A stretch of DNA of 48,476 nt from an uncultured Bacilli bacterium (GTDB lineage: Bacteria; Bacillota_I; Bacilli_A; RF39; UBA660). This document shows positions 17,580-42,208 of this stretch, in pieces. How positions within the stretch are numbered: position 1 is the stretch's first letter; the number at the start of each line of letters is the position of its first letter. The DNA is taken from the NCBI GenBank assembly GCA_944363785.1, contig CALVVF010000013.1, positions 1-48,476 of the forward strand, given 5' to 3'. The translations under genes and the position numbers were made by a program. Under the pieces are notes generated by a model. The model did not search any database. It was not told the origin of the DNA and saw only the letters and a program-made list of their open reading frames with translations.

Positions 17580-19673
17580 GTGAAAAGGAAACGATATTTT
17601 TTAATAGTGCTTATTTTATTAGGCATTGTTTTTTTAGTGACTGGATTAAGCTATGCTTACTTTATCGCAGCAGCGAATTCAGAGGAACAAGTAGTAAAAT
17701 CAGGAGTATTAGAATTAACTTATCATACAGGACAAGATATTTCTACAGAAGGGATGTTTCCAACAACAGAAGAGAATGCTTCGACACATAAGTTTACTGT
17801 AGAAAATACCGGGACACTTGATGCACACTATAATATTAGTTTTATTGATATCGCTTTAACAAAAGGCGGAATGGATGTTACTTCGTTTAATTTAAAATGG
17901 GCATTATATCTAGCGGATAGTGATTATACAGAAGGAGACCCTGTTAAAGAAGGTAGTTTTTCTCCTAGTTCGGGTTACGTAAGTGGTGATGATGAATTCG
18001 TTATCAAAACGAATATGATTTTAGCACCTGAAGAAAAACAAAGTTTTATTCTAAAAGTATGGTTAGAAGAAACAGGTAAACCACAGAATGAAGATCAAGG
18101 ATTAAATCTCGCAATGAAAATGCAAGTGGATACATTAGATAAACAAGAAACAGCTAGTAAACAAAGTGTAATGAGAGAACGGAATGATCAGTGGTCTAAC
18201 GAAACTTTCTATGAGTATGATAATTCGATTACAAAAATAGTATTCCAAAATAAAATGAACCCTATTCCTGAAGCTGCTTACAGTTGGGATGTATCAGAGA
18301 ATAATGATGGCAACTGCATGGCTTACTTAGTTTCAAATGGTGAAGAAACAGATCCAACTTATACTTTATATATTCAGGGAAATGATGAAATTTATTTATC
18401 GAGTGGACGTTATATGCTTTTTCGTTTTTCTAGTTTAGAAACTATTGAAGGTATGGAATACGTAAAAGGTAGTCAAATGACAGATATGAGTGATATGTTT
18501 GAAGAATGTTCTTTAACAAGTTTAGATTTAAGTCACTTAGGCACTAATCAAGTAAAAAGCATGGAAAGAATGTTTAGTGAATGTAATGAATTAGTCAGTT
18601 TGAATTTAGATAATTTTGATACTAGTCATGTAACGGATATGAGTTATATGTTTATTGGATGTTATAATTTACTTGGTTTAGATGTAAGTAGTTTTAATAC
18701 TTCACAAGTAACAGATATGAGTTATATGTTTTCTGGAAACTCAAATAAGAGTCTTGCACCAGATTCAAAGCTAGCAGAAATTATTGGCTTAGAGAACTTT
18801 GATACTTCACAAGTGACGAATATGAGTGGTATGTTTTCTGAATGCTTTAGCTTAACTAGTTTAGACTTAAGTAGTTTTGATACAAGCAAAGTAACAGATA
18901 TGAGTGAGATGTTTTCAGGTAAAACGACTGATAATTATTATGAACCTTATATGCAATTGACTCAAATTAAAGGAATAGAAAATTTTGACACAAGCCAAGT
19001 AATAAACATGAATTATATGTTTAACCGATGCGGTAGTTTAACAAGTTTAGATTTGAGTCATTTTGATACCTCCCAAGTGACTAGCATGGGAGCTATGTTT
19101 AATCGATGTAGAGGTCTATCCTATTTGAATGTGAATAGCTTTGACACCTCCCAAGTGATTGATATGAGAATGATGTTTGCTGGCTGTAGTAGTTTAATCA
19201 ACCTAGATGTAAGTCATCTTAATACTTCAAAAGTTGTAGATATGTGGAGAATGTTTGCTGAGTGTAGTAGCTTAACCAGTTTAGATGTGAGTCATCTTGA
19301 TACCTCGCAAGTAACGAATATGAATGAGATGTTCAATGACTGCAGTAGTTTAACCAGTCTAAATGTAAGTAATTTTGATACCTCGAAAGTGAAGGATATG
19401 ATGTTGATGTTCGCTGATTGCAGTAAATTAACCAGTCTAGATGTAAGCAATTTTGACACTTCCCAAGTGACGAATATGTGGTGGATGTTTGCTGGTTGTA
19501 GGAGTTTAATAAATTTAGATTTTCGAAATGCTACTTTTACCACAGTAACTTCTTACAGTGATATGTTTAGTAGTGTCCCATCCACTATCCAAATTATCGT
19601 AAAAGATACTACCGCTCAATCATGGATGCAAGAAAGATTAGGTAGTGGTAAAGGTACTGTCATTATCGCATAA
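17580..19673 (+). CDS. BspA-like surface protein with DUF285 repeats
   Basis: A 697-residue exported protein. An N-terminal signal or anchor helix (about 5-30, ending SYAYFIAA) precedes a beta-rich region (about 35-170; SGVLELTYHTG) like those of TasA/camelysin-type exported proteins. From about residue 300 run roughly thirteen 26-residue DUF285 repeats (consensus MFxxCxSLTSLDLSxFDTSQVTDM), some with inserts. This Mycoplasma-type leucine-rich repeat family is used in adhesion and host contact. The protein ends without LPXTG or another anchor. GTG start behind AAGGGGTG. Confidence 0.9.
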   Translation: MKRKRYFLIVLILLGIVFLVTGLSYAYFIAAANSEEQVVKSGVLELTYHTGQDISTEGMFPTTEENASTHKFTVENTGTLDAHYNISFIDIALTKGGMDVTSFNLKWALYLADSDYTEGDPVKEGSFSPSSGYVSGDDEFVIKTNMILAPEEKQSFILKVWLEETGKPQNEDQGLNLAMKMQVDTLDKQETASKQSVMRERNDQWSNETFYEYDNSITKIVFQNKMNPIPEAAYSWDVSENNDGNCMAYLVSNGEETDPTYTLYIQGNDEIYLSSGRYMLFRFSSLETIEGMEYVKGSQMTDMSDMFEECSLTSLDLSHLGTNQVKSMERMFSECNELVSLNLDNFDTSHVTDMSYMFIGCYNLLGLDVSSFNTSQVTDMSYMFSGNSNKSLAPDSKLAEIIGLENFDTSQVTNMSGMFSECFSLTSLDLSSFDTSKVTDMSEMFSGKTTDNYYEPYMQLTQIKGIENFDTSQVINMNYMFNRCGSLTSLDLSHFDTSQVTSMGAMFNRCRGLSYLNVNSFDTSQVIDMRMMFAGCSSLINLDVSHLNTSKVVDMWRMFAECSSLTSLDVSHLDTSQVTNMNEMFNDCSSLTSLNVSNFDTSKVKDMMLMFADCSKLTSLDVSNFDTSQVTNMWWMFAGCRSLINLDFRNATFTTVTSYSDMFSSVPSTIQIIVKDTTAQSWMQERLGSGKGTVIIA
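18470..19560 (+). repeat. DUF285-coding repeats
   Basis: About thirteen diverged copies of a roughly 78-base unit. Identical cores such as TTTGATACTTCACAAGTGAC recur, so recombination could change the repeat number. Confidence 0.8.
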
Positions 19674-21390: not shown

Positions 21391-21636
21391 ATGATTTATC
21401 GAATCTATAAAACGGCTAATATGGGACCGAAAGAATTAGGAAAGAAAGAGGAAATTAAAGAAGTAGTTCAATTGATTGACGAGGATATAAAAAAAGAACC
21501 ATCAGGAACTTATATGGTTATTGAACATAACCCAGAAGAAAAAAGTGATAATATTTATAGGATGATAGCTAATGTTCAAGATTTAGAAGTGTGGCACCAA
21601 GAAATTGCTGAACAAGAAAAAACAAGACAAAGATAA
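21391..21636 (+). CDS. Small hypothetical protein
   Basis: An 81-residue acidic soluble protein (VVQLIDEDIKKEPSGTYMVIEHNPEE) with a clear AAGGAG ribosome binding site. I do not recognise it. It is probably co-transcribed with the ABC-F gene 24 bases upstream and with the membrane thioredoxin just downstream. Confidence 0.7.
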   Translation: MIYRIYKTANMGPKELGKKEEIKEVVQLIDEDIKKEPSGTYMVIEHNPEEKSDNIYRMIANVQDLEVWHQEIAEQEKTRQR

Positions 21637-21652
21637 AAGACAATATAGAAAG

Positions 21653-22090
21653 ATGAGATGTAACAATGAACAAAAAATAGTCATGATAATAAGTGTAATT
21701 CTCATTATCCTACTCAGTATTTTGATTATATTTCTAGTTTTTAAAAGAAATCGTTATCAGGAAGTTAATGTTTATCTATTTTCAGGAGAAACTTGTCCTG
21801 TTTGTAAAAAAGCTAGAACATATTTACAAGAATTAGATCAAAAGTTTGACAATAAAATAAATTTGATCGAATTAGAAGTATGGTACAATGAAGAAAATAG
21901 AACAAATATGGATAAAGTATCCCAAGCATTAGGAGATACTTTATCCGGTGTTCCTTATATTATTGTAGGAGAAGAAAGCTTTGTTGGTTTTTCAGATACG
22001 ATTAGTGAAAAACTAGAAGTAGCTATTGAAACAGAAATGAAAAAGGAAAATCCACAAGATATTGTAGCTCCTATTATAGAAAAGAAATAA
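21653..22090 (+). CDS. Membrane-anchored thioredoxin-like protein
   Basis: A 145-residue protein if read from ATG 21653. One N-terminal helix (about 9-31) is followed by an outward thioredoxin fold with the redox pair CPVC in VYLFSGETCPVCKKA and the cis-Pro region SGVPYIIVG. Probably a thiol-disulfide exchanger at the membrane. The start is uncertain: no strong ribosome binding site precedes it, and an in-frame TTG (21605) lies in the preceding gene. A related protein with the same fold but a C-terminal anchor is encoded at 35386. Confidence 0.82.
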   Translation: MRCNNEQKIVMIISVILIILLSILIIFLVFKRNRYQEVNVYLFSGETCPVCKKARTYLQELDQKFDNKINLIELEVWYNEENRTNMDKVSQALGDTLSGVPYIIVGEESFVGFSDTISEKLEVAIETEMKKENPQDIVAPIIEKK

Positions 22091-32407: not shown

Positions 32408-33076
32408 TTATTTTTTAAACATCTTCTTTTTAATTTTTTCAAAAGGATTTGTTTTATTTTGTGTTTTAAATATCTCTTCACTATTGTTTATAGTGTAATA
32501 CTCGGCATCTAAGCTTTTAAGAAATTCTCTCTGTTGCATTAATCTTTCTTTTTCTTTCTTTAATATTTCTTCTTGTTCTTGTTGAAATAGTTCTAACCAC
32601 TCTTGATTTTGTCTCATTCTTTCTTCATATTCTTGCTGAGCTTGTTTCCATTTTTCTTCACGTTCTCGTTGAGCGTTCTTTATTCTTTCTTCACGTTCTC
32701 GTTGTGCTTGTTTCCATTTTTCTTCTTGTTGAGTTTGTCCAGTTCTTCTTTGATATTGCTCATAAAAATACTCATCAAAGAAACTCCAAAAATCCTTAGT
32801 ATTTTGCGCATGCGTGTAGCCACTATTTGTATTTGTTGTTGTATTGTTGAATGATGTTCTACTTTGGTTTCCTTTCAAGGTAGCATCGTATTGTTTTTTA
32901 CTTTGTTCATTGCTCAATGTATTATATGCTAAGGTGATTAGTTGCATCATATTAGTAGTGTCTTGCCCAGGATTATTGTCCGGGTGATATTTTCTAGCTT
33001 ACTTATAGTAGGCTTTTCTTATTTCTTCTGGAGTTGCGGTAATATCTATTCCTAATATCTCGTAGTAGTTTTTCAT
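32408..33076 (-). pseudogene. J-domain protein gene broken by an in-frame stop
   Basis: From ATG 33076 (ribosome binding site GGAAGGG) the frame encodes MKNYYEILGIDITATPEEIR, then KAYYK, then a TAA (codon 26; 32999-33001), then ARKYHPDNNPG without loss of frame. Intact J-domains read KAYYKLARKYHPD, so one TTA Leu codon has become TAA. The remainder is open to 32408: end of the J-domain, a Thr/Asn linker, a Phe/Tyr-rich patch and a long charged coiled coil with repeats. Translation could restart downstream (ATG codons at 32950/32947), but then the HPD is lost. A J-domain protein is encoded intact at 36686. Confidence 0.82.
32641..32725 (-). repeat. 33-base tandem repeat in the J-protein tail
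   Basis: CTTGTTTCCATTTTTCTTC stands at 32641-32659 and 32707-32725, and TTCTTCACGTTCTCGTTG at 32654-32671 and 32687-32704. They encode repeated EEKWKQAQREREERIKNAQ-like units of 11 residues. Confidence 0.7.
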
Positions 33077-34599: not shown

Positions 34600-35304
34600 A
34601 TGAAACTAATTATCAAGGATGGTATGGTTAGTCGTAATACACCATCCAGTAGCGAAAAAGCACTATGCCTTGCACTTCATACTTCTTATGTAGATGGAGT
34701 AGCGACTAATGTTTATTTAACCAAAGATGATGAATTAGTCATCTATCAAAAAGATAATATAGAAAATAATCCCATTAAAGAACAAACCTTATCATCTTTA
34801 CAATTATTTAATTTAGGAAGTAGGGTAAAACCTCATTTTCTTATTTCCTTAAAAAGAGCCTTAGAAATTTTTAAAACAACAAAGAAAAAATTAATTTTAA
34901 ATGTAGTGGATCACGGAAGTAAGAATTCAAAATATATCAGCAAACTACTTACTTTAACTAACCATTATCCAGAAGTTAACCTCTATTTAAAAAGTAGTAA
35001 TCAACAACTAGTAGAACAATTAAATAAAAAGAAAAATAAACAAAAAGTTGGTGCGGTGATTACTACTTATGATTCTCCATTTTGGTTACTTTCATTAGAC
35101 TTCTATTCTCTAAATACGACCAATGTCGATATCAAAGAAGCATTAAATCAATTAGCTATAGGGAAAATACTAATGGTAGAAAATATCGATTCTAAAGAAG
35201 AGTTAAATCATATACATCACTATTACGGCTGTTATTCGCACTCCGTTTATGTAATTTCACCTTTATCTTTTATCATTAGTCGTTATTTTCATAAGGAGTT
35301 ATAA
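34600..35304 (+). CDS. GDPD-like TIM barrel, probably catalytically dead
   Basis: A 234-residue protein with the shape of a glycerophosphodiester phosphodiesterase: SRNTPSSSEKALCLAL stands where active enzymes have HRG...PENT, GVATNVYLTKDDELVIYQKD where they have E-x-D...TKDGxxVVxHD, and the helix-strand rhythm continues to the end. The catalytic His pair and the metal-binding Glu/Asp are missing. It is somewhat short (usually about 240-250). Possibly a ligand-binding pseudoenzyme. Ribosome binding site GGAGGGGG; cytoplasmic. Its terminator separates it from the next operon. Confidence 0.75.
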   Translation: MKLIIKDGMVSRNTPSSSEKALCLALHTSYVDGVATNVYLTKDDELVIYQKDNIENNPIKEQTLSSLQLFNLGSRVKPHFLISLKRALEIFKTTKKKLILNVVDHGSKNSKYISKLLTLTNHYPEVNLYLKSSNQQLVEQLNKKKNKQKVGAVITTYDSPFWLLSLDFYSLNTTNVDIKEALNQLAIGKILMVENIDSKEELNHIHHYYGCYSHSVYVISPLSFIISRYFHKEL

Positions 35305-35316
35305 AACTCTTTTTTT
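35293..35316 (+). terminator. Terminator overlapping the stop codon
   Basis: AAGGAGTT/AACTCTTT (one G-U) with loop ATAA containing part of the stop codon, followed by a T run to 35316. Confidence 0.75.
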
Positions 35317-35351
35317 CTTAAAAATCAGGAATAGCTTTTCCTACACTACTA

Positions 35352-35360
35352 TGGTATAAT
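35352..35360 (+). promoter_or_regulatory. Extended -10 promoter of the thioredoxin/Tim44/J operon
   Basis: TGG-TATAAT, 26 bases before the first ATG of the four-gene operon. Confidence 0.65.
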
Positions 35361-35385
35361 AAAAATAAATAGGTGTGGTGATAAG

Positions 35386-36006
35386 ATGAAAAAAATCATA
35401 TTGAGTATGTTATTTTTTTTACTGATGTTTTTCCCAATGTCAGTATTTGCGCTAAATGAAGTAAATGTTTATTTCTTTTATAGCCCAACATGTAATATTT
35501 GTAGTCAAGAAAAAGCTTTCTTAGAGGCATTACAACAAAATAAATATCCCAATCTGCGAATTTATTACTATGATACTTCAGAAGATAAAAATCTAGCTAT
35601 CATGAATCAAGCAAAAGAACTATATCAAGAAACAACAAATGGAGTACCATTTACGATTATCGGGGATACCGCTTTTGCGGGATTTTCTCAAAGTAAGAAA
35701 TGTTCTATTCAAAAGAATATCTATAATTATTCCTATCATACTTATGAAAATAAATTTGGCACAATGATTGGTGGACAATCCTATCGAACAGATTTAGAAG
35801 GTGACGTCGAAGAATATACGGATGATGAAGATTATTTAATCGAAGAAAATCCTGGTGGCGATACTTCTAATGAAATCAAAGAAGAAAAAGAATCAATATT
35901 TACGAATCCTAAATTCCAGTCAAGTATAATCTTAGTAGTCTGTGGAGTAGTTTTAGGCGTATTTGTTTTATTCTTAACTTTCTTTGAGAGGAGGAATCGC
36001 ACATGA
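35386..36006 (+). CDS. Exported thioredoxin-like protein with C-terminal anchor
   Basis: A 206-residue protein. A cleavable signal peptide (about 1-22, cut after VFA), then a thioredoxin fold with redox pair CNIC in VYFFYSPTCNICSQEKA and a cis-Pro loop NGVPFTIIG. After a region unlike thioredoxin and a very acidic linker (about 140-170), a membrane helix (about 178-200) and basic tail anchor it. A third Cys lies at KKCSIQ. First gene of a four-gene operon; its TGA overlaps the next ATG (ATGA). Likely a membrane-surface disulfide exchanger. Confidence 0.88.
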   Translation: MKKIILSMLFFLLMFFPMSVFALNEVNVYFFYSPTCNICSQEKAFLEALQQNKYPNLRIYYYDTSEDKNLAIMNQAKELYQETTNGVPFTIIGDTAFAGFSQSKKCSIQKNIYNYSYHTYENKFGTMIGGQSYRTDLEGDVEEYTDDEDYLIEENPGGDTSNEIKEEKESIFTNPKFQSSIILVVCGVVLGVFVLFLTFFERRNRT

Positions 36007-36686
36007 TATGGTTTATTGTTCCTATCATTATTCTCTTAATTATTATTTTAATTTCATCCTTATGGATCGTAAAACTATCAAAACAAGAAAAAGAGTACAT
36101 GGAAGTTTCTAATCAATATTTAAAAGAAATTGGAAAATCCTATACCAAAGAACAATTTAGTACGGCGATCTTCGAACTATATAAAAATGTAATTCAAGCC
36201 GTTCAAGACGAAAATTTCTCATATTTACGGGAAAGCTTATCAGATGAGATTTATAATAGTTATCTACTTGCGATTAAAAATTCTAAGATGAGAAATGCCA
36301 AAACCGTTGTCGAAGATATGAATTTTGTGTTTAGTAAGCTAATCAGTTTGACCGTTAAAGATAATTTAGAAATAGCTAAAGTTTGGTTAAAAGTCAGATA
36401 TTGTGAATTAGTTATCGATACAACACCACTTTCTCCGGAAGAAATTAGAGCTGGAAAAACCCCCAGGGTAATAGCAGGAAGTAAAACAAAACCATTAGAG
36501 AAAGAATATATTTTAACTTTAGTGAAAACACGAACCGAAAAAGAAAGTATTGTCTGTGCCAATTGTGGTTATCTAACGAATATTGTAACTAGAAATACCT
36601 GCCTTCGTTGCGGAGCGAATATTGCCAGTAGACATTATCATTGGGTAATGATTGCTAAGGAAGAGACAAATGTGAGTAATAAATAA
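36003..36686 (+). CDS. Tim44-like membrane protein with zinc ribbon
   Basis: A 227-residue protein. An N-terminal helix (about 2-24), then a Tim44-like/NTF2-type domain (about 45-175: FSTAIFELYKNVIQAVQDEN, LRESLSDEIYNSYL, VEDMNFVFSKLISL, VWLKVRYCELVID). Inserted near the end is a zinc ribbon, CANC-GYLTNIVTRNT-CLRC (about 186-206), before the last strand HYHWVMIAKEE. Tim44 domains bind membranes and recruit chaperones in mitochondria; the bacterial version is uncharacterised. Overlaps its neighbours by 4 bases and 1 base. The next gene encodes a J-domain protein, a Tim44-like pairing. Confidence 0.85.
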   Translation: MIWFIVPIIILLIIILISSLWIVKLSKQEKEYMEVSNQYLKEIGKSYTKEQFSTAIFELYKNVIQAVQDENFSYLRESLSDEIYNSYLLAIKNSKMRNAKTVVEDMNFVFSKLISLTVKDNLEIAKVWLKVRYCELVIDTTPLSPEEIRAGKTPRVIAGSKTKPLEKEYILTLVKTRTEKESIVCANCGYLTNIVTRNTCLRCGANIASRHYHWVMIAKEETNVSNK

Positions 36687-37570
36687 TGCTAACGAAAGAA
36701 GAAATTTATGTAAAATTAGGATATCGTGGTGAGTACACCAAAGAAGTGAAACGTAAATTTCGCTTGTTATGTAAACATTATCATCCTGATGTTAATCATG
36801 GAAACGGTGAGACAATGAAGCTTCTTAATCAAGTTAAAGAAGAAATAGAAGCTGCAGAAGAAAAGAGAGAAGTTAAGCACACAAATAGAAACTTTTCTTC
36901 ATCCCCACCAGAAGAGACCTTTACGCAACCAGACTTTTCCGCAAAAACAGAACAAGAAGATATCTTCCAACTAATCCCCAAAGAAAAGTTGGAGAAAAAA
37001 ATCGCAGAACTCGAAGAAATATTGAAAGAAATGCTCATAACCTTAACCAGTAAAAACAAAAAAATTTATCAAATATATCAAGAATATAATCATTTATTAG
37101 ATAAGATTGAACGTAGTAAAGTAGAAATTGATCTGTTAAAGACAAGTAGTACAAAGTACAGTAATTATTTATTTTTATTATTTGGCATCTCGATTGGAAT
37201 TTTCTTCTTTCTCTTGTTTTTTGTTTTTATCTTAGGCATCATGTACGGATATTTTCAAAGCTATTTCTTTTGGTTAATCTTGATTGTCTTCTTAGGTTTG
37301 AATGTTGTAACTCTATATTTTTTAGTTCAAACAGATATCAAAAGACGGAAAATAGATGCCAAAATTAGTAGTCAATATGCTAAGAAAAATGAACAAATGA
37401 TCAAATCTTTTCAAATACAAGATGAAATTATAAAACAAGAAGAGGACTATCGAAACCTAAAAACTAAGTATCAAAAAACAGCTAATGATCGTCAACTATA
37501 TTACTATGAAATTTCAAAAAGACAAAACAAAGTACCACAAAAAAGTAAGATGAAAAAATATAAACTCTAG
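36686..37570 (+). CDS. Membrane J-domain protein
   Basis: A 294-residue protein. Residues 1-50 form a J-domain with HPD (YVKLGYRGEYTKEVKRKFRL, KHYHPDVNHG). A Pro/Thr linker and a coiled coil (about 95-150) lead to two membrane helices (about 158-185 and 190-213), then a second coiled coil (about 220-280) and a basic tail. It should recruit and activate DnaK at the membrane. ATG overlaps the stop of the Tim44-like gene (TAATG), implying translational coupling. Confidence 0.85.
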   Translation: MLTKEEIYVKLGYRGEYTKEVKRKFRLLCKHYHPDVNHGNGETMKLLNQVKEEIEAAEEKREVKHTNRNFSSSPPEETFTQPDFSAKTEQEDIFQLIPKEKLEKKIAELEEILKEMLITLTSKNKKIYQIYQEYNHLLDKIERSKVEIDLLKTSSTKYSNYLFLLFGISIGIFFFLLFFVFILGIMYGYFQSYFFWLILIVFLGLNVVTLYFLVQTDIKRRKIDAKISSQYAKKNEQMIKSFQIQDEIIKQEEDYRNLKTKYQKTANDRQLYYYEISKRQNKVPQKSKMKKYKL

Positions 37571-37579
37571 GAGGTAGTA

Positions 37580-37912
37580 ATGAAAGATATTTTGGCTTAT
37601 GAAAATCAGAAACAAGTACGAGAGTTTTGGTTAGAAAATGAAATGGTAAGATCCAGGCTAGTATCAGTGTTAATTCAATTAAAAAGAAAGTATGGATTAG
37701 AAAAAGAAAGATTATTAAATAGTAAAAAAGGAGAAAAAATAGTTTCTTTTCAAGAATGTAAAGAAAAATGTGAACAGTTAGACCAAGAGTTTAAAGAAGT
37801 TAGGGATTTATTAATATATAATGAAATATATTGTGAACAGCTAGATCAATTACTGGCTTATCATGATTATTCTTATGAAAAACCACAAAGTAAAAAGAAG
37901 TCATTTCGGTGA
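37580..37912 (+). CDS. Small coiled-coil protein, last gene of the operon
   Basis: A 110-residue charged helical protein (REFWLENEMVRSRLVSVLIQ, CEQLDQEFKEVRDLL, repeated CEQLDQ). No known family. Ribosome binding site AGGAGG. The gene ends inside the terminator hairpin. Likely a structural partner of the membrane J-protein, by operon position. Confidence 0.72.
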   Translation: MKDILAYENQKQVREFWLENEMVRSRLVSVLIQLKRKYGLEKERLLNSKKGEKIVSFQECKEKCEQLDQEFKEVRDLLIYNEIYCEQLDQLLAYHDYSYEKPQSKKKSFR

Positions 37913-37920
37913 CTTCTTTT
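37893..37920. terminator. Terminator with UUCG loop, shared
   Basis: A 12-bp stem (AAAAGAAGTCAT/GTGACTTCTTTT, one G-U) closed by TTCG; it contains the TGA of the upstream gene. TTTTT on the minus strand also fits the converging lipoprotein gene. Confidence 0.85.
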
Positions 37921-40109: not shown

Positions 40110-40126
40110 AAAAATAGGAGTAAATG

Positions 40127-42208
40127 ATGGGAAAACAGCAGAAAAAGTATAGAAAAGAAATAGCTTCGTATTATACATATACAAGGGATGACCGCGCATA
40201 TTTAATTGAAACTTTAGTAATAGCTAGTTTGGATCCCATATTTTTTGCTGATTCGTTATTTCAAAATTATTATACTATTTTAATTGAACATCAAAACTGG
40301 TTTCTTCGAGAATTAGAAAAATTAGAGGCAGAAGAGAAAATCTCTAAGAAAAAATGGCATTTGTTAAAAGAAGCCTATCAATTACAAATAGAAATGCTTC
40401 AATGTTTATCTGATTATGTCGACCTAAACTTGATTTTACCAGATAAATATGTTGAACAAAAAATAGAAAACAGTGAGTTAGACTATGCTAATTATGTTGA
40501 TTTATTAAATAAAAAAGTAAAAAATATCAAAAAAGAAAAGAGGAGGAAAAAATTGAGTAAAATAAAAATAGTAGCCTTAGGTGGCTTAAATGAAAATGGA
40601 AAAAATATGTATGTTGTTGATGTTGATGATCAACTGTTTGTTTTTGATGCAGGGTTAAAATTTGCCACTAGTAAAATGTTAGGTGTAGATTACATTATCC
40701 CTAATATCGATTATTTAATTCAAAATAAGAAAAAAATAAAAGGAATTTTTCTAACCCACGGTCATGAAAGTAATATGGGAGCAATTAGTGATATCTTACT
40801 TGCTTTACCAACCGTTACTGTTTATGCAACTAAATTTACGATGGAAATTGTTAAAAATGAACTTAGAGAAGCGGGCATTCTTCGAGCTAGATTAAAAGAG
40901 ATTCGTCCTCATGCGAAGATTGATTTTGGTAATGATTTAGTTATTTTCCCTATCAGTGTGACTCATTCGATTCCTGATGCAGTATGTTATGTTCTATATA
41001 CAAAAGATGGAGCGATTGTGTATACAGGTGACTTTGTCTTTGATTCGACGATGATGGGAAATTATAAGACCGATATTGGAAAACTTGCTTATGTAGGAAA
41101 ACAGGGAGTACTTTGTTTATTGTGTGAATCATTCTATGCCGAAAAAGAAGGACATACTTCACCTAATAACCGCGTAAGTGACTTTATTCACGAAGTACTT
41201 AGTAAGAATGAAGATCGTATCATCGCAACGATTCTTCCTGCTCATATTTACCGCGTTCAAGAAATCTTTAATGAAGTGATGAAGACTCATCGTAAGATTG
41301 TAGTCATGGGAAAAGGATTACAAGAATTGATTCATAAAGCGATCGATTTAAACTATCTTACGATCGATAAAGAACGAATTGGGGATTTATCTAATTTAGG
41401 AGATAAAGGGGTTATCGTATTAATCTCTGATGAAAAAGAAAAACCATTTGCTAACTTAGAGCGAATTATTCGTGGCTTTGATAAATATATTAAGTTAAAA
41501 GAAACAGATACGATTTTTATCACTGAACCAAGCTATGAAGGAATTGAAAAGAGATTAGCCCTAATCATGGATGAAATTGCGAAAGCTAATGTTAATGCGG
41601 TTAGCTTATCTAGTAAAAAACATCTTCTTCATCATGCTTCACGTGAAGATTTAATGTTGATGATTAATTTGATGAACCCTAAATATTATTTTCCAGTTAA
41701 GGGAGAATATCGTCATCAATATATGAATGCTGAAGTAGCAGAAGGACTTGGTATTCCAAAAGAGAATATTTTATTAAAACAAAATGGTGATGTGGTTACC
41801 TTCCAAAATGGTGAGTTAGTAGATACAAAAGAACATATCGAAATTGATGAAGTACTAATTGATGGAAAAAATCAAGGAGATATTGGTGAACTTGTTTTAA
41901 AAGATAGAGAAATGCTAGGAGAAAATGGAATTGTTATTATTAGTGCTACCTTAGATCGAGCAACGAAAAAGATCCTAGCAGGACCAGAGATCGTAACAAG
42001 AGGATTTATCTTTGTCAAAGATAATTTAGATTTGATTGCTGAGACGAAACGAGTTTCTCAAGAAATTATCGAAAGAAATACAAACGAAGAAAATCATCGC
42101 GTAGATTATACAAAAATAAAAAATGAAGTACGTGAGTCTCTCGGTAAATATTTCTATCGTCAAACGGAATGTAAACCGATGATTATCACGGTAATTCAAG
42201 AAGTATAG
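40127..42208 (+). CDS. rnj: RNase J-like protein with N-terminal extension, degenerate active site
   Basis: A 693-residue protein. Residues 1-142 are a helical, unrecognised extension (RAYLIETLVIASLDPIFF, a coiled coil, a Lys/Arg-rich end). The rest is RNase J: KIVALGGLNENGKNM, the beta-CASP region and the C-terminal domain. The metal motif expected as HGHEDH reads HGHESN, and PVHGEYR reads PVKGEYR; the HSIPDAV and TGDFVFD positions are kept. Cleavage activity is probably reduced or lost, as in J2-type subunits. An internal ribosome binding site (40541) allows a normal-sized product. The start is ATG 40127 (40124 is too close to AGGAG). Confidence 0.92.
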   Translation: MGKQQKKYRKEIASYYTYTRDDRAYLIETLVIASLDPIFFADSLFQNYYTILIEHQNWFLRELEKLEAEEKISKKKWHLLKEAYQLQIEMLQCLSDYVDLNLILPDKYVEQKIENSELDYANYVDLLNKKVKNIKKEKRRKKLSKIKIVALGGLNENGKNMYVVDVDDQLFVFDAGLKFATSKMLGVDYIIPNIDYLIQNKKKIKGIFLTHGHESNMGAISDILLALPTVTVYATKFTMEIVKNELREAGILRARLKEIRPHAKIDFGNDLVIFPISVTHSIPDAVCYVLYTKDGAIVYTGDFVFDSTMMGNYKTDIGKLAYVGKQGVLCLLCESFYAEKEGHTSPNNRVSDFIHEVLSKNEDRIIATILPAHIYRVQEIFNEVMKTHRKIVVMGKGLQELIHKAIDLNYLTIDKERIGDLSNLGDKGVIVLISDEKEKPFANLERIIRGFDKYIKLKETDTIFITEPSYEGIEKRLALIMDEIAKANVNAVSLSSKKHLLHHASREDLMLMINLMNPKYYFPVKGEYRHQYMNAEVAEGLGIPKENILLKQNGDVVTFQNGELVDTKEHIEIDEVLIDGKNQGDIGELVLKDREMLGENGIVIISATLDRATKKILAGPEIVTRGFIFVKDNLDLIAETKRVSQEIIERNTNEENHRVDYTKIKNEVRESLGKYFYRQTECKPMIITVIQEV
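40541..40555 (+). promoter_or_regulatory. Internal ribosome binding site and TTG start in the RNase J gene
   Basis: AGGAGG at 40541-40546 is followed 6 bases later by TTG (40553-40555), in frame, exactly where stand-alone RNase J proteins begin (SKIKIVALGGL). Two products, about 693 and 551 residues, are therefore likely. Confidence 0.65.

Follow-up and report, generated by a model that had tools for sequence, protein, structure and literature searches.

A linked thioredoxin-like and Tim44-like gene pair in a genus of gut Bacilli, with a membrane J-protein beside it in one clade

Known Tim44-like systems and the locus

The plastid-division proteins ARC6 and PARC6, like cyanobacterial Ftn2, carry a J-like domain, a transmembrane (TM) span and a Tim44-like domain in one protein, with the Tim44-like domain across the membrane from the degenerate J-like domain. 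The Caulobacter proteins TimA and TimB of Clements et al. (2009) reportedly occur in separate complexes, and Tim14 has its TM span first and its J-domain last. Mitochondrial Tim44 (PF04280) is the scaffold of the TIM23 motor; its N-terminal domain binds Hsp70 and Tim14/16, and its C-terminal domain binds the channel (PMC4749553). In B. subtilis, the SPFH protein YdjI has a C-terminal zinc finger and needs YdjG/YdjH for its membrane localisation (PMC8581546), in YdjG an NTF2-like domain is joined by zinc ribbons and a TM span, and pairings of PspA with thioredoxin genes are known as well (PMC11237479).

We analysed a four-gene operon in a stretch of 48,476 nucleotides, called the window below, from an uncultured Bacilli bacterium. 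The draft assembly of the host genome has 36 contigs and a size of 1.38 Mb. It belongs to Candidatus Scybalousia, a genus that includes Candidatus Scybalousia intestinigallinarum and represents a gut Bacilli lineage known mainly from metagenomes. The four genes are called TRX, TIM44, JMEM and CC110 (Table 1), and our search for them covered 17 genomes of the genus and some 240 from the family. An earlier note on this DNA had read them as one membrane module that couples DnaK recruitment with redox or quality control of exported proteins.

The locus differs from each of the described systems. TIM44 has the C-terminal fold of mitochondrial Tim44 in common, is likewise predicted to lie at the inner face of an energised membrane, and has a J-protein encoded beside it in four species; however, it has a TM span, a zinc ribbon and an exported thioredoxin partner of its own, and lacks the N-terminal domain that binds Hsp70 and Tim14/16 in mitochondria (PMC4749553). 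Since only the C-terminal-type domain is present, DnaK recruitment cannot rest on Tim44 homology; we ruled out an Hsp70 role carried over from Tim44, and the mitochondrial analogy drawn by the earlier note goes too far at this point. TimA/TimB resemble the window operon in having a bacterial Tim44-like protein and a membrane J-protein, but no thioredoxin is found in TimA/TimB, and TIM44 scores 21.6 bits against the NCBIfam TimA model (NF033779), whose curated cut-off is 80. The mL45/Mba1 protein shares the Tim44-like fold but is a ribosomal protein and does not share the TM span, the zinc ribbon or the thioredoxin partner of TIM44. The zinc ribbons, NTF2-like membrane protein and SPFH/zinc-finger partner of PspA-YdjGHI are similar to the surroundings of many other Tim44-like genes; unlike the window locus, where no SPFH or PspA gene was seen, that system has a TPM domain (in YdjH) and no exported thioredoxin.

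Table 1. Coordinates of the operon and of other features discussed in the text
Feature	Sequence	Position	Strand	Description
Extended -10 element TGGTATAAT	window	35352..35360	+	TGNTATAAT kept in 14/15 orthologues
TRX (gene 1)	window	35386..36006	+	206 aa; predicted exported, membrane-anchored thioredoxin-like protein
TIM44 (gene 2)	window	36003..36686	+	227 aa; predicted Tim44-like protein (NTF2 fold) with a TM anchor; four-Cys zinc ribbon close to the C-terminus
JMEM (gene 3)	window	36686..37570	+	294 aa; N-terminal J-domain and helical hairpin with two predicted TM spans
CC110 (gene 4)	window	37580..37912	+	110 aa; small, charged, probably helical, family unassigned
Bidirectional intrinsic terminator	window	37893..37920	.	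hairpin fold, z -6.0
234-aa protein gene	window	34600-35304	+	5' of TRX; no Pfam match above cut-off
Weak hairpin and T run	window	about 35294-35318		by eye
Second J-domain gene	window	32408-33076	-	MKNYYEILG...KYHPDNNPG; in-frame TAA at codon 26 (32999-33001)
Second J-domain gene	L021	2427-3215		intact, 262 aa
TRX paralogue	window	21605-22090	+	membrane-anchored; CPVC motif
Large exported protein	window	17580-19673	+	repeats
RNase J-like protein	window	40124-42208	+	694 aa
Small membrane J-protein	L126	6289-7062		no TRX/Tim44 nearby
Small membrane J-protein	L127	6530-7261		no TRX/Tim44 nearby
Small membrane J-protein	L128	6129-6869		no TRX/Tim44 nearby
Small membrane J-protein	L061	139-987		no TRX/Tim44 nearby
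Cysteine-desulfurase-like/thioredoxin/TRX-NPC operon	L064	3093-5765
Cysteine-desulfurase-like/thioredoxin/TRX-NPC operon	L066	3013-5582
Cysteine-desulfurase-like/thioredoxin/TRX-NPC operon	L067, L068, L219
Tim44/zinc-ribbon pair next to SPFH/zinc-ribbon gene	L036	6434-9129
Tim44/zinc-ribbon pair next to SPFH/zinc-ribbon gene	L141, L143, L145, L153, L158, L161
Second Tim44-like gene of a congener (G014)	L038	1534-2460		SPFH-associated type

The operon and its conservation

The single operon of the earlier note, with one extended -10 element, one terminator and overlaps of 4 and 1 bases, is confirmed, its four + strand open reading frames having the positions and order given there. TRX and TIM44 overlap in ATGA and TIM44 and JMEM in TAATG, and the gap of 9 bases between JMEM and CC110 has a strong ribosome-binding site (AGGAGGT). 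The one orthologue without TGNTATAAT 5' of TRX has TGTTATACT instead; in 500 shuffled sets, the corresponding count of TGNTATAAT was 0.26 on average and 2 at most. A plain sigma-70 promoter scan did not list TGGTATAAT, because there is no good -35. The terminator, between CC110 and the convergent znuA-like gene, is a 12-pair hairpin of -13.4 kcal/mol, a value that none of the shuffles equalled; its stem overlaps the last codons of CC110, and the terminator serves the znuA-like gene too. Among the 15 congeneric loci, 10 have the 234-aa protein gene 5' of TRX; in the window, the weak hairpin and T run follow it.

We found TRX and TIM44 adjacent and overlapping in 15 of the 17 congeneric genomes, by 4 bases in 14 and by 1 base in the remaining one. 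The pairs lie 5' of a convergent znuA-like gene and usually of yidD, which is nearby in most relatives. The other two congeners (G003 and G004) have no TRX-TIM44 pair and no neighbouring znuA-like gene either, so one deletion or an assembly gap may explain both absences; this co-absence says little, and we dropped it as evidence for linkage. JMEM and CC110 follow TIM44 only in G000, G001, G012 and G016, which form one clade in the TIM44 tree (support 82/99; one change) and all keep the 1-base TIM44/JMEM overlap. Eleven congeners have the pair but not JMEM. In ten of them the end of TIM44 and the znuA stop are 20-45 bases apart; G002 has a further gene between the two.

All four genes are under purifying selection as judged by pN/pS, which is 0.10-0.15 for TRX and TIM44 and 0.31-0.37 for JMEM and CC110 (about 0.34 for CC110); the two downstream genes thus evolve about three times faster than the TRX-TIM44 pair. 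They also have a common distribution and a common evolutionary rate. A J-protein neighbour is absent from all 38 other Tim44-like loci that we examined. Relatives of JMEM with the same architecture were found in G025, G090, G131 and G254, with no TRX or Tim44 in the surrounding sequence seen, the G025 contig stopping just past the gene. Because the J-protein arm is limited to one clade, evolves faster, has relatives elsewhere without TRX or Tim44 and is missing at those 38 loci, it is most simply a recent addition, JMEM and CC110 having joined late in the four-species clade. The linkage in relatives that the earlier note set as a check therefore holds for TRX and TIM44 and not for JMEM and CC110, and its four genes do not make one conserved module.

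A further sign that TRX and TIM44 belong together comes from another genus. At the same locus, G135 encodes a 417-aa protein, a second Tim44-like gene, the convergent znuA and yidD, and then rnc. The 417-aa protein has a signal peptide, a TRX domain, one TM span, a Tim44 domain (33.6 bits against the Pfam cut-off of 29.6) and a zinc ribbon. A profile of TIM44 orthologues matches the second G135 gene strongly (about 1e-17) and the Tim44 domain of the fusion weakly, so the window layout probably corresponds to the second Tim44 gene together with a TRX that carries no Tim44 domain. This fusion, known from the one genome that its genus holds, demonstrates that a single molecule can combine an exported TRX with a cytosolic Tim44 domain, arranged across the membrane as predicted for TRX and TIM44. 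The two do not always come together, since TRX occurs alone at the same locus in G081 and Tim44 alone in G119. Judged by synteny, overlapping genes and fusion, TRX and TIM44 are an old and genuinely linked unit.

Predicted proteins and a proposed mechanism

The middle protein was said in the earlier note to be Tim44/NTF2-like, and our structural comparison agrees. TIM44 scores 28.6 bits (1.7e-6) against Pfam Tim44, just under the gathering cut-off of 29.6, and two relatives at the same locus reach 42.2 and 61.0 bits. Its AlphaFold2 model (pLDDT 86) matches the C-terminal domain of yeast Tim44 with Foldseek at 3.1e-5, and 3qk9 and 2cw9 in VIA with Z 12.7 and 12.4. The structural neighbours are yeast and human Tim44 and mL45 at Z 12-14, with mL45 on top at 13.7; ARC6/PARC6 match at about 12.6, and VirB8 ranks lower. 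By its model, TIM44 has the Tim44 C-terminal-domain (NTF2-like) fold. According to the model and the TM prediction, this domain is preceded by a TM helix and a short helix and nothing more. Positive charges directly follow the TM spans in TIM44 and in the G135 fusion, which would place the Tim44 domain inside the cell. The ribbon cysteines C185, C188, C200 and C203 are invariant, and a match of the ribbon to ribosomal eL37 (E 0.04) is not significant. No plasmid relatives of TIM44 were found.

TRX starts with a signal peptide ending in ...SVFA, has CNIC (CxxC) and GVP motifs, and ends with a TM span at about 181-199 and a short positively charged ERRNR tail. In an alignment of 15 sequences C36, C39, G86 and P88 are invariant, the GxP being of the thioredoxin cis-proline type, and the TRX profile matches thioredoxins at E 0.04. 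The redox domain should lie outside the cell, as predicted from these features. TRX belongs to a large group of exported CxxC proteins, which 200 of the 243 genomes in the family encode. Many members of this group have about 400 aa and a polytopic C-terminal domain with an NPC motif, which is CcdA-like by eye and not recognised by Pfam. These TRX-CcdA-like fusions of other genera in the same family (L064, L066 and L219) share the exported TRX family, but their C-terminal half is the polytopic NPC-motif domain, whereas the window-type unit has one TM span and Tim44. A search of the genus, which had no positive control, found no relative of this membrane domain. In other genera, a recurring operon combines a cysteine-desulfurase-like protein, an 85-92 aa thioredoxin and TRX fused to the NPC-motif domain. 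The window also holds a TRX paralogue without a Tim44 neighbour; it has GVP and GF motifs as TRX does and passes the glutaredoxin model PF00462 (26.0 against a cut-off of 22.9).

The J-protein named in the earlier note is upheld as well. JMEM keeps the HPD loop between helices II and III at residues 33-35, invariant in eight homologues; its model has J-helices at 4-11, 19-32 and 41-66, and it matches J-domains of the PDB at 2e-5, with a Pfam DnaJ score (21.4) below the cut-off of 27.8. The J-domain is short and is followed in the model by a long helical hairpin with two predicted TM spans at its tip, so that the J-domain and the coils should both be cytosolic. Foldseek with the JMEM model returned generic coiled coils and no E below 0.001, and we set aside a DUF2207_C match of JMEM, which is below cut-off and of charged and hydrophobic composition. 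The host genome encodes dnaK, grpE-like and canonical dnaJ genes (L136). CC110, probably a coiled-coil protein, has no Pfam match, and no relatives were found outside the four-species clade. We ruled out a phage or defence origin of the operon, which has no PADLOC match and a single weak PHROGs match, to JMEM. Small membrane J-proteins with a J-domain, a coiled coil, a TM hairpin and another coiled coil occur at unrelated loci of several genera. A second J-domain gene in the window has its in-frame stop just before the HPD; the gene seems to decay in some species, since it is intact in L021 and in pieces in L023.

We read the gene structure, motifs, likely topology, linkage, fusion and late J-protein arm from the sequences, and the Tim44 fold from a predicted model. 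The explanation that we consider best, at roughly even chances, is a membrane-spanning device made by TRX and TIM44, to which one clade would have added a DnaK-recruiting JMEM. The CxxC thioredoxin-like domain would lie outside the cell and the Tim44-type domain and zinc ribbon on the inner face, the two proteins forming a complex through their membrane spans. TRX may reduce, reshuffle or sense cysteines of exported or membrane proteins, and the Tim44 domain may be the docking part of the complex, with lipid or a membrane-protein or insertion site as its target. In the four species with JMEM and CC110 at the operon end, the J-domain of JMEM would bring DnaK to the TRX-TIM44 site; DnaK recruitment could come only from JMEM, with its intact HPD, because TIM44 does not have the part of Tim44 that binds Hsp70 and J-proteins. 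The TRX-TIM44 unit probably handles or senses exported or membrane proteins. We further speculate that it links the thiol state outside to an inner docking platform, coupled in one clade to DnaK via JMEM, an arrangement that would have arisen in parallel to the mitochondrial Tim44-J-protein-Hsp70 motor but independently of it; such a redox-linked machine is unlikely.

The component families are each known already, and the four-gene reading is weaker than had been proposed. In a limited literature search, we did not come across a thioredoxin-Tim44 pair or fusion described before. The function of bacterial Tim44-like proteins of this kind is little known, and the TRX fusion across a TM span suggests a concrete partner and topology for them. 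If JMEM works with TRX-TIM44, this would be a second meeting of a Tim44-like platform with an Hsp70 co-chaperone, outside mitochondria.

Alternative explanations and other Tim44-like loci

Tim44-like genes occur in 38 of the 148 genera sampled in the family, including that of the window. We surveyed the neighbourhoods of 38 other Tim44-like loci in about 36 genomes and found two or more Tim44 genes at 25 loci and an SPFH/zinc-ribbon gene adjoining Tim44 at at least 15 (Band_7_1 4e-22). In many Tim44 pairs, one member is a membrane protein that has an exported Ser/Gly-rich stretch, a TM span and a Tim44/zinc-ribbon part, and the other is a soluble Tim44/zinc-ribbon protein of about 180 aa. We know of no described function for such gene sets, which look like a Psp-like membrane system. 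This context resembles PspA-YdjGHI, and the main rival to the device proposed above builds on it: TIM44 could be a member of a wider membrane-anchored Tim44/zinc-ribbon group, often paired and near an SPFH (band-7)/zinc-ribbon protein, within a Psp/Ydj-like envelope-stress or membrane-assembly platform, with TRX as the redox sensor input and not an enzyme for exported proteins. The likeness to YdjI, YdjG and the PspA-thioredoxin pairing (PMC8581546, PMC11237479) adds to the counts in its favour. However, no SPFH gene is found among the window ORFs near the operon, and the congeneric TRX-TIM44 pairs end at znuA with no SPFH named beside them, and we regard this platform as rather unlikely for the window locus. 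In addition to its TRX-linked Tim44-like protein, one congener encodes another that is of the SPFH-associated type.

An alternative hypothesis could be that JMEM and CC110 are a passenger insertion with a function of their own, sharing the promoter of TRX-TIM44 by coincidence. The single-clade distribution, the faster evolution and the JMEM relatives at unrelated loci would all fit, but the 1-base overlap with TIM44 persists in each of the four species and purifying selection acts on both genes, which leaves the hypothesis doubtful though with an appreciable chance. TIM44 might also, like mL45/Mba1, hold ribosomes or YidC/SecYEG at the membrane while TRX performs thiol chemistry on the emerging domains. 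This is suggested by mL45 as the top structural neighbour and by yidD, a membrane-insertion factor, adjoining the locus in most relatives; yet mL45 and Tim44 are tied in score, yidD is encoded on the other strand and belongs with the znuA-like gene, and the ribbon is not significantly like eL37, and we find such docking quite improbable. It is very improbable that the operon encodes a bacterial counterpart of the import motor, with TIM44 bringing DnaK and the J-protein to a translocation channel where they would pull or push polypeptides. The Tim44 C-terminal-domain fold and the presence of an HPD-bearing membrane J-protein in the operon speak for it; against it stand the missing Hsp70/Tim14/16-binding domain (PMC4749553), the absence of JMEM in 13 of 17 congeners and at every other Tim44 locus seen, and the order of JMEM, which has its J-domain first and the TM hairpin in mid-protein, unlike Tim14.

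Two further observations concern other genes of the window. In several congeners the first 140-170 residues of the RNase J-like protein form a separate ORF 5' of a 551-aa RNase J ORF. The large exported protein contains many 'DMSEMF..CSSLTSLDLS' repeats and is BspA/DUF285-like by eye.
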